Origin: an uncultured Bacteroidia bacterium
Lineage (GTDB): Bacteria; Bacteroidota; Bacteroidia; NS11-12g; UBA9320
NCBI GenBank assembly: GCA_905478335.1
Contig: CAJQIC010000025.1
Location: forward strand, 1 to 64,000
Direction: 5' to 3'
DNA: 64,000 bases
The position numbers and the translations under genes were made by a program. The notes beneath the pieces were generated by a model. That model was not told where the DNA came from and searched no databases. It saw nothing but the letters and a program-made list of their open reading frames with translations. This document shows, one piece after another, positions 25,099 to 64,000 of the stretch (positions within the stretch are counted from its first letter, which is position 1; every line of letters begins with the position of its first letter).

Positions 25099-25150
25099 AA
25101 TATTATCCTACCGCAAAGATTGACTCATTTGGAATGATAGGCAAGTTATT

Positions 25151-25280
25151 AAGGATTGAATGTTGGAAGGATTGAATGTTGGAAGGATTGAATGTTGGAA
25201 GGATTGAATGTTGGAAGGATTGAAGGATGGAAGGATTGAATGTTGGAAGGATTGAAGGATGGAAGGATTGAAGGATTGAA
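25151..25280. repeat. Octamer-register repeat array (16-bp units)
   Basis: Seven contiguous 16-base units (AAGGATTGAATGTTGG or AAGGATTGAAGGATGG) are followed by two 8-base half-units. The basic period is 8, each 8-mer being of the form AAnGnTnG. No indels interrupt the register across 130 bases. Confidence 0.95.
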
Positions 25281-25295
25281 TAATCGTCGTCAGGT

Positions 25296-25351
25296 TATCC
25301 AGTCTTTAGTCTTGAGTCCTCAGTCTTCAGTCTACATTCTACTCTCTTAAT
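25296..25351. repeat. Heptamer-register repeat array
   Basis: Eight contiguous heptamers (TATCCAG, TCTTTAG, TCTTGAG, TCCTCAG, TCTTCAG and so on) follow the octamer block. The 26 bases at 25291-25316 match, in reverse complement and with one mismatch, 62632-62657. Confidence 0.9.
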
Positions 25352-25379
25352 CCTGCACATTACCCAACGCAAGAATTAA

Positions 25380-39127: not shown

Positions 39128-39484
39128 ATGTCAATCAACATCAAACAAAAACTCTCACTGTTTTCCGATCACTGGAACCCACGTATTGTCGGTGAGCTAA
39201 ACGGACAGCATGTCAAACTTGCCAAATTAAAAGGTGAATTTGTGTGGCACAAACACGATAACGAAGATGAAATGTTTTTGGTGATTAAAGGTTCCTTCGA
39301 CATGCACTACCGTGATCGAATTGAAACCATAAAAGAAGGAGAATTTACCATTGTCCCACGTGGCATTGAACACAAACCGGTGGCAGACAAAGAAGTGTCT
39401 ATCATGCTTTTCGAGCCAGCAAGTACGGTTAATACTGGTGATTCTGGTGGAGATTTAACGAGAGATAAATTGGAGTGGATTTAG
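39128..39484 (+). CDS. Small cupin-domain protein
   Basis: This 118-residue single-cupin protein has the metal-site pattern EFVWHKHDNEDEMFLVIKG (His-x-His and Glu) and a second motif in IVPRGIEHKP. It probably binds a metal; the reaction is not known. The end lies at the edge of a repeat array. It is likely cotranscribed with the DinB gene. Confidence 0.85.
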   Translation: MSINIKQKLSLFSDHWNPRIVGELNGQHVKLAKLKGEFVWHKHDNEDEMFLVIKGSFDMHYRDRIETIKEGEFTIVPRGIEHKPVADKEVSIMLFEPASTVNTGDSGGDLTRDKLEWI

Positions 39485-39497
39485 AGGGCTAATGTTT

Positions 39498-39593
39498 GAA
39501 GGATTTAAGGATTGAGGGATTGAATGTCGGGATGATTGTAGGGTTGAAGGATTGAAGGATTGAGGGGTTGAGGGTCTGAAGGATTGAAGGATT
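39498..39593. repeat. Octamer-register repeat array
   Basis: Twelve contiguous octamers (GAAGGATT, TAAGGATT, GAGGGATT, GAATGTCG, GTAGGGTT and others) hold an exact 8-base register for 96 bases with many substitutions but no indel. It is the same word family as 25151-25280. Confidence 0.92.
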
Positions 39594-39597
39594 GTGG

Positions 39598-39646
39598 TAT
39601 CAGCTATCAACTCTCAGCTATCAATTATCAATTCCTAACTCCTAAT
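39598..39646. repeat. Heptamer-register repeat array
   Basis: Seven contiguous heptamers follow the octamer block (TATCAGC, TATCAAC, TCTCAGC, TATCAAT twice, TCCTAAC, TCCTAAT). The words resemble those at 43970-44166. Confidence 0.88.
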
Positions 39647-39654
39647 GTTAGTGC

Positions 39655-43771: not shown

Positions 43772-43969
43772 ACCCAAAGTCACGTCAAACTAGAACCTTA
43801 AGTAAAGGCCGTAATTGTTTTGTTCGGCAATGGGATTGAGTATAAAGTATGAAGTAGTGAGTACCAAGAATGCAGATTTCTGATTTCAGTTGGGCGAATT
43901 GACTACACTGTAGATTCTTCATAGTATAATAATTGGTCTAAACGGAAGAATGCCTCCGACGAACATTTT
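43772..43969. other. Intergenic region between ORF6N and repeat array
   Basis: No supported gene. A short heptamer array (43834-43875) lies within it; the rest is AT-rich. Confidence 0.4.
43834..43875. repeat. Heptamer array downstream of the ORF6N gene
   Basis: Six heptamers in register (GATTGAG, TATAAAG, TATGAAG, TAGTGAG, TACCAAG, AATGCAG). They nearly match 42914-42941. Confidence 0.65.
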
Positions 43970-44166
43970 CAAATTTCAAATTTCAATTCTCAATTAACAC
44001 TTACGATTAGCAGTTAATCATCAGCTCACAATTATCAACTCTCAATTATCAGCTCTCAATTATCAACTTTCAATTATCAACTCTCAATTATCAACTCTCA
44101 ATTATCAGCTCTCAATTATCAACTCTCAATTATCAACTCTCAATTGTCAACTCTCAATTATCAATT
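43970..44166. repeat. Long heptamer-register array with 14-bp units
   Basis: The register of 7 begins at CAAATTT (43970) and continues without indel to 44166. From 44027 it settles into ten 14-base units (CTCAATTATCAACT with C/T or A/G changes). The last unit is 12 bases before the S9 peptidase -33 box. Confidence 0.93.
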
Positions 44167-44171
44167 ATTAA

Positions 44172-44200
44172 TTGTTAATTGACCCCTTACCCTATATTTG
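44172..44200 (+). promoter_or_regulatory. Putative S9 peptidase promoter at repeat edge
   Basis: TTG at 44172-44174, an 18-base gap, and TATATTTG at 44193-44200. The box is only 5 bases before the ATG at 44206, so the mRNA would be leaderless or nearly so. Confidence 0.5.
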
Positions 44201-44205
44201 ACATC

Positions 44206-61229: not shown

Positions 61230-61299
61230 ATTCTTAATGTTTAATTCTTAATGTTTAATTGACCTATCAACTGTCAAGTGTCCATTATCAACTGACGTC
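61230..61299. repeat. Heptamer array entering the TerC 3' end
   Basis: Ten heptamers (ATTCTTA, ATGTTTA, repeated, then ATTGACC, TATCAAC, TGTCAAG, TGTCCAT, TATCAAC, TGACGTC) run in register. The TerC stop codon (61288-61290) and last four codons lie inside the array. Confidence 0.82.
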
Positions 61300-62367
61300 A
61301 GAAGAGGTGTCTTTAAATGCGATAGATAACAAAATACTTCCACCCAAAATTATGCCTATGATTAACAAAGACATCTTGTTGTCTATGCCTAAAATCTCAA
61401 CGATATAATGATGAAACAGCATTTTGACGCCAATAAACGTCAACAATACCCCAAGCCCGTACTTTAGGAATCTAAATAAGTGTACCACATTGGCGAGTAA
61501 AAAGAACATCGACCTCAGTCCCATAATCGCAAAGATGTTTGAAAAGAAAACGACGTATGGATCTTTAGTTACTACAAAAATGGCTGGAACCGAGTCGACG
61601 GCAAAGATTAAGTCTGACGCTTCAATCACCATCAACACAATAAACAAAGGCGTAGCCCAAGTCCTTTTGTCTTTTCTGATAAAGAAATTATGCCCCACGT
61701 ATCTCGGAAAAACTGGAAAAATCTTGCTTACCAGCTTGACAACCGGGTGGTTCTTCTCATCAATGGTTTCTTCCTTATCCCCTTGAATCAAAATTTTAAC
61801 ACCACTATAAATCAAGAATGCACCAAAGATGTAAAGCACCCAATGAAACTGTTGTATGATCGCTGCACCTAAGAAAATAAAGGTAAAACGCATAACGAGT
61901 GCACCCAAAATCCCCCAGAATAATACACGCTTGTAATACCGCTCTTTAACGCCAAAGGTTTGAAAGATTAACAGCATCACAAAAATATTATCGACGCTCA
62001 ACGCATACTCTATAAAATATCCCGTAATAAACTCAAGGGATAGATTGTTACGGTACGCTTCAGTAAGTGTTTCGAATGTATGCCCTTCAATTTCAATCGG
62101 ATGTTCGAATTTCTCAATGATATATTTCAGCTGCTGTAGGTCGGTAAACCCATGAATGAAGTGACCATAATTCTTAAGAAAAAAGAAGAACCCAAAGGCG
62201 CAGGCAACCCAAATAGCAGACCAGATTAGAGACTCTTTGAAGGTTACTACCTTATTCTCTTTTGAAAAAATACCCAGATCGAGCATTAAGACAAACAAGA
62301 TGAAAACGATAAAGATCGAAAAGAAAATTAACTCGTTCGACTGTATCGCTAAAAAAGGTATTTGCAT
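61288..62367 (-). CDS. TerC/Alx-family integral membrane protein
   Basis: The 359-residue protein has about nine membrane segments and the TerC motif GYFIEYALSVDNIFVML, a conserved Asp-rich membrane region tied to metal (manganese) efflux or tellurium resistance. The second copy of the motif, ASDLIFAVDSVPAIF, is present. I chose the ATG at 62367: it matches the family start and lies downstream of a -7 box (TATTTTTG at 62386-62393), while a longer frame at 62400 would start before that box. Confidence 0.85.
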   Translation of the reverse strand: MQIPFLAIQSNELIFFSIFIVFILFVLMLDLGIFSKENKVVTFKESLIWSAIWVACAFGFFFFLKNYGHFIHGFTDLQQLKYIIEKFEHPIEIEGHTFETLTEAYRNNLSLEFITGYFIEYALSVDNIFVMLLIFQTFGVKERYYKRVLFWGILGALVMRFTFIFLGAAIIQQFHWVLYIFGAFLIYSGVKILIQGDKEETIDEKNHPVVKLVSKIFPVFPRYVGHNFFIRKDKRTWATPLFIVLMVIEASDLIFAVDSVPAIFVVTKDPYVVFFSNIFAIMGLRSMFFLLANVVHLFRFLKYGLGVLLTFIGVKMLFHHYIVEILGIDNKMSLLIIGIILGGSILLSIAFKDTSSDVS

Positions 62368-62385
62368 AGGGTTTTTTAAGACGCG

Positions 62386-62393
62386 CAAAAATA
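62386..62393 (-). promoter_or_regulatory. -7 box of the TerC gene
   Basis: TATTTTTG on the minus strand, 18 bases before the chosen ATG at 62367. Confidence 0.45.
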
Positions 62394-62415
62394 CACGCAT
62401 TTAAATTGAAAGAGA

Positions 62416-62499
62416 ATTGATAGTTGATAATTGATAGCTGATAGTTGAGAGCTAATAGCTGATAATTGATAATTGAAAGTTGAAAGTTGAAAATGCATT
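62416..62499. repeat. Heptamer block 1 of the composite array
   Basis: Twelve heptamers (ATTGATA, GTTGATA, GCTGATA, GTTGAGA, GTTGAAA and others) without indel; reverse-strand relatives of the words at 43970-44166. Confidence 0.9.
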
Positions 62500-62500
62500 G

Positions 62501-62547
62501 TACTCATTCACTCATTCCACCTTCACTCATTCAATCATTCAATCCTT
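62501..62547. repeat. Octamer block of the composite array
   Basis: Six octamers (TACTCATT, CACTCATT, CCACCTTC, ACTCATTC, AATCATTC, AATCCTTC). They are the reverse complement of the AAGGATTG family. Confidence 0.8.
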
Positions 62548-62664
62548 CAGACATTCTAACAGCAGGAATTAGCCACTAGGCATCAGGAGTTGGTTTATTA
62601 GGAATATAGAAAAGAGACTCAAGACGGAAGACTCAAGACTAAGGACTGGATAACCTGACGTTGA
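62548..62664. repeat. 117-bp composite repeat, copy 1
   Basis: Mostly heptamer-register words (GGAATTA, GCCACTA, GGAGTTG, GACTCAA, GACTAAG, GACTGGA, TAACCTG). It is repeated at 62694-62810 with about four substitutions and no indel; part also matches 25291-25316 in reverse. Confidence 0.9.
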
Positions 62665-62693
62665 TTAATGACTCATTCAAACATTCCGACATT

Positions 62694-62810
62694 CAGACAT
62701 TCTAATAGCAGGAATTAGCCACTAGGCCTCAGGAGTTGGTTTATTAGGAATATAGAAAATAGACTCAAGACGGAAGACTCAGGACTAAGGACTGGATAAC
62801 CTGACGTTGA
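62694..62810. repeat. 117-bp composite repeat, copy 2
   Basis: The second copy of 62548-62664, at a spacing of 146 bases. Between the copies lies a short octamer block (ACTCATTC, AAACATTC, CGACATTC, AGACATTC). Confidence 0.9.
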
Positions 62811-62818
62811 TATTGACC

Positions 62819-62906
62819 CATTCAGACATTCAATCCTTCAGACATTCTATCCTTCAGACATTCTATCCTTCAATCCTCCTATCCCTCAATCCTTCACCCC
62901 TTCTAC
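62819..62906. repeat. Closing octamer block of the composite array
   Basis: Eleven octamers (CATTCAGA, CATTCAAT, CCTTCAGA, CATTCTAT, CCTTCAAT, CCTCCTAT and others) in strict 8-base register. Confidence 0.9.
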
Positions 62907-62950
62907 CTCGAATCATTCACAAAATAGGACAGTAACAATTGCGCACAGTT

Positions 62951-62979
62951 TTTGAAGTAATACAATAGTTTTAGTTTTG
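62951..62979 (+). promoter_or_regulatory. Promoter of the MORN-repeat gene
   Basis: TTTG at 62951-62954, a 17-base gap and TAGTTTTG (TAnnTTTG) at 62972-62979. The ATG at 63000 is 20 bases on, giving a leader of about 15 bases. Confidence 0.6.
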
Positions 62980-62999
62980 AACCCGTATTATATATACTT

Positions 63000-64000
63000 A
63001 TGCGATTAAAGTCTTTTTGGATTTCTCTTTTGGTTTTTAGTTCTCTGGGTGGCACTCAAGTATTTGCACAGAGTAAGGTCTTTTTCGAAAAACTTGAAAA
63101 AAAGGGAGACATCTACCTGTATCAAGGCAAGCCATATACGGGTACGTCTGTTTTGCTATTCGATAACAAAAAGAATTGGCAACGTGTTGAATGGAAGGAA
63201 GGAAAAATACATGGCTGGTTCAAAAGCTGGTATATTAATGGCCGCACAGATCAAAAAGTGCAGTATCAAAATGGAATAAGACATGGGTCATATCATTCGT
63301 TTCACGACAACGGTAACGACAAAATCGTATGCAACTATGTTAATGGTAAACGTGATGGCGTGTTTACGGAATACTACAAGAGTGGCATTAACAAACGAAA
63401 AGTAAACTATGACGACGGTGTTAAGAACGGACCATTAACCATTTGGTTCCCAAACGGAAAAAAAGAACAAGAAGGAAATTTTAAAGATGGAAAGCCACAC
63501 GGAACCGTAGTTAGTTACACACAAATAGAAACCAAACGGAAAGAAGTAAACTATGTAAATGGTCTTCGTCACGGTTTTTCGTATATCTATCATTCAAGCG
63601 GCGTTATTGGTGAGGAGACCGAATACAACATGGGCTTCATCCACGGAAAAAAAATCGTTTACGATCCGAAGCACAACAAATTGTCTGAGCAAACTTATGT
63701 AATGGGTAAACTTGATGGTGTTTCAATCAAGTATAGACCACCCGTCAATGCATCGCCTGTCGGTTACAAAATTGAACAAGCGCACTATAAAGCGGGCAAA
63801 CTAGACGGTGAATACATCAAATGGGTAGATCAAAAAATCGATATGCGCGGAAACTATTCGAATGGGCTAAAAACGGGTGAGTGGATTGAGCATGCGAGTA
63901 ACGATGGATCTAAGTCTTCAGGATCTTACAAAGCGGGTAAAAAGCATGGCCCTTGGATTATTGGACACTCTCGTCTTTTTGGTAAAAGTGAAGGCAGTTT
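63000..64000 (+). CDS. Secreted MORN-repeat protein (runs off the window)
   Basis: The frame runs from an ATG at 63000 to the window end with no stop (over 330 residues seen). It has a signal peptide (FWISLLVFSSLGGTQVFA) and tandem MORN/YwqK-type repeats of about 23 residues, each of the form (E/D)xxYxxGKxxGxxxxYxxNG, for example YVNGKRDGVFTEYYKSG and FKDGKPHGTVVSYT. Such repeats are common in Bacteroidota outer proteins and often annotated as YwqK antitoxin-like, but this name says little about function. C-terminal end not seen. Confidence 0.85.
   Translation, partial: MRLKSFWISLLVFSSLGGTQVFAQSKVFFEKLEKKGDIYLYQGKPYTGTSVLLFDNKKNWQRVEWKEGKIHGWFKSWYINGRTDQKVQYQNGIRHGSYHSFHDNGNDKIVCNYVNGKRDGVFTEYYKSGINKRKVNYDDGVKNGPLTIWFPNGKKEQEGNFKDGKPHGTVVSYTQIETKRKEVNYVNGLRHGFSYIYHSSGVIGEETEYNMGFIHGKKIVYDPKHNKLSEQTYVMGKLDGVSIKYRPPVNASPVGYKIEQAHYKAGKLDGEYIKWVDQKIDMRGNYSNGLKTGEWIEHASNDGSKSSGSYKAGKKHGPWIIGHSRLFGKSEGS

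Follow-up and report, generated by a model that had tools for sequence, protein, structure and literature searches.

An alternating heptamer and octamer array in a Bacteroidia genome carries a duplicated composite and probably evolves in a satellite-like manner

How does an intergenic array come to be built from words of two different lengths that take turns, and does it grow one word at a time or by the copying of larger segments? This question is raised by positions 62398-62916 of the window, by which we mean the whole 64,000-nt stretch of DNA analyzed here, taken from an uncultured Bacteroidia bacterium. The left neighbor of the array is TerC (61288-62400, minus strand; PF03741, E value 5e-51). 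To the right, a divergent, repeat-rich ORF occupies 63000-63998 on the plus strand; its product looks by eye as if it begins with a signal peptide, and a Pfam search gave no match. The -7 element of Bacteroidetes promoters has the consensus TAnnTTTG, and a putative element of this type precedes each of the two genes (Table 1). The array adjoins the upstream side of the putative TerC element and occupies the interval between the two divergent putative promoters. Therefore, it probably lies upstream of both genes and within neither transcript.

The periodicity of each block was assessed by counting self-matches at lags of 7 and 8 and comparing these counts with 2000 dinucleotide shuffles. The initial annotation had read the blocks from left to right as 7-8-7-8-7-8, and this order holds because every block exceeds all 2000 shuffles. 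Both copies of the 117-bp module reach 47/110 at lag 7 against a shuffle mean of 29, a score that none of the 2000 shuffles attains. GC skew flips sign block by block, and block C3 contains a 16-bp period within 62821-62872. The tandem heptamers (lag-7 59/76 and 47/110) place the locus with the bacterial intergenic heptamer arrays termed STRR/LSSR-like. It departs from them in word length, since 7 and 8 alternate here and in many other arrays of the genome, whereas one word length per array is typical of that class, if not strictly defining. Three further arrays of 7- and 8-bp words are present in the window (25141-25363, 39477-39653, and 43822-44205), all with polarity opposite to that of the TerC-site array. 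At the site of the array near 39.5 kb, the sister species G001 carries an octamer array.

Table 1. Coordinates of the TerC-site array and the elements that flank it
Feature	Position	Strand	Evidence	GC skew
Putative Bacteroidetes-type -7 element TATTTTTG, upstream of TerC	62386..62393	-	Sequence; motif also in relatives L041, L042, L043	
Putative -7 element TAGTTTTG of divergent ORF at 63000	62972..62979	+	Sequence; similar TAnnTTTG motif in L042	
Block A, heptamers of YTGAWAR type (TTGATAG/TTGAAAG)	62411..62493	+	Lag-7 59/76, shuffle mean 24, 0/2000 shuffles	+0.74
Octamer block C1, CATTCAAT type	62502..62555	+	Lag-8 33/46, 0/2000 shuffles	-0.90
117-bp module, copy 1	62548..62664	+	4/117 differences from copy 2; periodicity	+0.24
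Octamer block C2	62666..62701	+	Lag-8 20/28, 0/2000 shuffles	-0.50
117-bp module, copy 2	62694..62810	+	Alignment with copy 1; periodicity	+0.24
Octamer block C3	62815..62910	+	Lag-8 53/88, 0/2000 shuffles	-0.77
Full duplicated composite, copy 1, 180 bp with one gap	62525..62704	+	90.6% identity to 62671-62849	

The two 117-bp copies are colinear, offset by exactly 146 bp, and identical at 113 of 117 positions (96.6%), which bears out the earlier description of two equal copies with about four substitutions, 146 bases apart. The substitutions (copy 1/copy 2) are 62560 C/62706 T, 62582 A/62728 C, 62614 G/62760 T, and 62636 A/62782 G. Each copy consists of a heptameric core of ~82 bp (~62560-62641 in copy 1) followed by a 23-bp nonperiodic tail (62642-62664 in copy 1, with only 1/16 matches at lag 7), and its start falls within the octamer block before it. 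Because neither 7 nor 8 divides 117 or 146 evenly, the copies are out of word phase. All four ends of the longer, 180-bp duplication sit inside octamer blocks. Here a whole composite was duplicated in tandem, and the pattern is not the product of words growing in parallel. As in a higher-order repeat, a unit of several blocks is repeated with its copies more alike than its subunits: 90.6% for the 180-bp unit, 96.6% for its 117-bp core, and 94.6% for a 312-bp unit on contig C36 of the source genome (C numbers denote contigs of this 2.8-Mb draft, G000).

It is most improbable that misassembly doubled a single real module. Arrays do break contigs elsewhere in this short-read-type draft, where several lie at contig ends (C32, C33, C34, C60, C62, and C23), and copy numbers may therefore be wrong. 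Yet four substitutions separate the two copies, and each of the three octamer blocks around them is different. Independent composite duplications also exist elsewhere in this genome and in the assembly of the relative G004.

When the window array was used as a query, 85 matching pieces were found in the draft genome and grouped into ~36 loci, to which one at C40:30 kb was added later. Approximately 36-40 arrays, a lower bound because they were counted from BLAST and pattern searches, therefore share a common word vocabulary and block order. Like STRR/LSSR-like arrays, they are intergenic and dispersed. The same 7/8 alternation is found at C11, C36, C70, C31, C33, C26, and C62. Read on the oriented strand, word family A (TTGATAG) or E (TTAGGAA) is followed by F (AATAGAA), G (GACTCAG), a short tail, and then C (the octamers), and this succession can cycle.

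Composites in which a heptameric module is enclosed by octamer blocks are likewise duplicated elsewhere, with two-copy identities of 99.2% at C36, 95.7% at C31, 92.6% at C62, and 89.6% at C40. The maximal duplications at these loci measure 312, 214, 174, and 147 bp, respectively, and at all four, as in the window, they end in blocks of 7- or 8-bp words. The initial annotation had suggested growth by the copying of composite segments and not only by the addition of single words, and had allowed that the composite might prove unique, with a register that breaks on inspection. The suggestion is supported, because composites of the same type recur at other loci of this genome, and an array of G004 has an independent composite duplication built from different words.

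Modules also form dispersed families. The 117-bp family has two members in the window, two at C36 (99.2% alike), one at C11:1.2k, and part of one at C25:25.1k, with 72-87% identity between loci. A second family (GACTCAGGACT...AGAATTCTGTTCT) is listed at 10 places in the source genome with 88-100% identity, and its matches in sister species are only short and partial (G004) or confined to octamers (G001). The C11:1.2k module is a mosaic: its first 45 bp are 97.8% identical to its neighbor of the 117-bp family, and its last 86 bp are 91.9% identical to a different family at C11:8.8k. Copies within one array are usually closer to each other than to copies at other loci. An exception is at C40, where one copy is nearer to a C70 copy (91.3%) than to its own neighbor (89.6%); tandem duplication is therefore not the whole story. 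Separately, a dispersed repeat of ~205 bp lies near several arrays (L014:4102-4308, L018:6774-6978, L019:3244-3545, L025:1-225, and L027:3817-4055) and is also present in G001 (L130:1285-1488), where it is 73-85% like that of the source genome.

Comparison with sister species provides a relative date for the composite. At the TerC site of G001 (L121/L128 = L041), the flanks are the same as in the source genome, and the array is simple, with ~18 heptamers followed by ~4 octamers and without the composite. The composite therefore appears to have grown after the two lineages separated. The 117-bp copies are also more alike (96.6%) than the TerC coding DNA of the two species (81.3%), and for this reason too an origin after the G000/G001 split is most likely on sequence grounds, although gene conversion could have kept the copies of an older duplication alike.

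Other orthologous sites differ in comparable ways. At C36, G001 has a simple heptamer-octamer array, the source genome has two extra composites, and G004 has its own independent duplication of different content (E-F-REP-C twice). At C31, the array measures 925 bp in the source genome versus ~30 bp in G001, and in G003 heptamer-like words (TTGAC) precede CATTTACA octamers. At least eight of the 11 G001 array loci examined sit where the source genome also carries arrays, and three lack a counterpart among the stretches compared. In our reading, the site is old and common to sister species, and its content turns over quickly. One G001 octamer array (L155) has two flanks that map to two array-bearing contigs of the source genome, L023 (C62) and L030 (C74), which suggests either that the assembly has a gap here or that an array was the site of a rearrangement.

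Arrays in the source genome have a consistent direction. All 20 adjacent pairs of heptamer and octamer runs at the loci examined, which come from about a dozen loci and are not all independent, lie on one strand. Heptamers are 5' of octamers in 17 of these pairs, and the other three involve octamer blocks of the preceding unit within composites. Transcription was rejected as the source of this polarity: by a simple ORF rule, the neighboring genes are convergent at 15, tandem at 17, and divergent at five of the 37 arrays with both neighbors called. Replication direction was rejected as well, because C28 shows opposite polarities 3.3 kb apart.

Fixed polarity invites the reading that the arrays are selected cis-acting elements, such as insulators, terminators, or binding sites for DNA- or RNA-binding proteins, whose heptamer-then-octamer grammar is under selection. 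We regard this as unlikely, even though array sites are common to sister species, G003 and G004 keep the same order in different words at the site orthologous to C31, and the TerC-site array is placed exactly between two divergent putative promoters. Gene contexts are mixed, neither words nor length are conserved, and presence itself varies among sister species, as in G002, which has no array at C36 and only 45 bp between the matched flanks. An RNA hairpin between heptamer and octamer arms, a terminator, or another structured RNA was rejected for the window array, which folds no better than shuffles on either strand (z +3.6 and +1.4). Other arrays gave mixed folding results with no trend relative to shuffles, and an Rfam search of the window found only a tRNA at 25.4 kb and no known RNA family at the array.

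Such words are also present in more distant relatives. In a sample of 395 Bacteroidota genomes, 95 contain three tandem YTGAWAR heptamers, although the reversed motif, used as a control, gives hits in some genomes too. Three tandem MTTCARWC octamers occur in eight of the 395 and in four of 105 genomes of the order. At a handful of distant-family octamer loci read by eye (L185, L190, and L198), a G-rich heptamer block precedes C-rich octamers on the same strand, which is suggestive and is a further point for a selected grammar. In G356, from another family, octamers instead form an inverted repeat (L183:1440-1549; GTCTGAAT... / ...ATTCAGAC), unlike the direct arrays described here. A bolder and rather unlikely proposal is that the arrays obey a directional grammar, in which G-rich heptamers precede C-rich octamers on one strand, and that this grammar is maintained at orthologous intergenic sites of different species, and perhaps of different Bacteroidota families, even as words are replaced and composites are reduplicated independently.

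Alternatively, the composites could be a mobile element or its descendant (REP- or MITE-like) that inserted as a unit, with tandem duplication being secondary. A CGTC-tagged REP-like palindrome (CATTCAGAGCGNAGCGAAGAATCT) occurs in the source genome in six copies at three or fewer mismatches (L208-L213: C26, C33, C48, C62, C23, and C33), each next to 7- or 8-bp words; in C26 and C33 it sits between a heptameric module and an octamer block. Such sequences are also present at G004 sites, and CGTC-tagged REPs have been reported from Bacteroidetes (Di Nocera 2013, PMC3733652). However, all six lie outside the window array, no module was found without word blocks at its ends, and no clean target-site duplication was seen, making this origin quite unlikely. 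RAYT-driven spread was rejected because the Y1 transposase (PF01797) is absent from G000 and G001, with two matches in G004. Phage or plasmid origin was also rejected: phage records gave no match, and plasmid matches (E. coli, Planktothrix, and Microcystis) are confined to the heptamer block.

We consider it probable that these are satellite-like arrays shaped by word slippage, by block-to-block recombination that duplicates composites, and by occasional exchange between loci. Three levels would be involved, namely words of 7 or 8 bp, blocks of a single word length, and composites of ~150-200 bp in which one or more heptameric modules are followed by an octamer block. Slippage would add or remove single words and thereby vary block length. 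Unequal exchange, in which the short-word blocks on either side of a module recombine or allow template switching, would duplicate a whole composite, and ectopic exchange between arrays at different loci could yield mosaic modules and dispersed module families. We infer that these are the enzymatic routes and that the arrays have no selected function.

In the satellites of eukaryotes, short units are built into longer multi-unit repeats that are homogenized locally. The likeness to the arrays described here is one of analogy only, and these are far smaller, bacterial, mixed in word length, and dispersed over dozens of intergenic sites. Among bacterial systems, the closest is the TAACTGA direct repeat, an intergenic heptamer of Beggiatoaceae, cyanobacteria, and some Bacteroidetes (MacGregor 2015, PMC4679880); rotating this word gives CTGATAA, which is word family A. 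The accessible sections of that report describe sites common to close strains with lengths that differ in 7-nt steps, and some Bacteroidetes arrays that mix several heptamers; they mention neither blocks of octamers, nor duplicated composites, nor a fixed polarity of heptamers and octamers. According to the same sections, the Beggiatoaceae repeats lie mostly directly 5' of start codons. The end of block A is close to the annotated start of TerC, although upstream of the putative promoter and on the other strand, and its words are a mixture of TTGATAG and TTGAAAG.

The G-rich heptameric repeats of Xanthomonas and Nostoc, with GGGAATC words able to form quadruplexes (Rehm 2015, PMC4692102), are likewise degenerate intergenic arrays, in most cases flanked by the same genes in related species and varying in length and sequence. 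They differ in having one word length and regular G-runs, which the words here lack. CGTC-tagged REP palindromes (PMC3733652) resemble the CGTCATTCAGAGCG...GAAGAATC element that adjoins arrays of the source genome, but none is in the window array, and the 117-bp module and word blocks are not that element. No account that combines alternation of 7- and 8-bp blocks with duplicated composites was found in the open-access literature searched, in which PMC4679880 was the only close match for octamer/heptamer composites in Bacteroidetes. Because intergenic heptamer arrays were already known, what appears to be new is therefore the alternating, polar, higher-order organization and not the kind of array.

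These findings imply that bacterial short-word arrays can evolve by higher-order duplication and interlocus exchange, much like the satellites of eukaryotes, and that they do so in genomes whose small size allows every array to be compared between sister species. The question of why heptamers and octamers keep one fixed order and strand thereby becomes testable. On the practical side, arrays of this kind interrupt assemblies and provide strain markers that evolve fast. If the proposal of a conserved directional grammar is true, these arrays would represent bacterial satellite DNA in which architecture, and not sequence, is kept.
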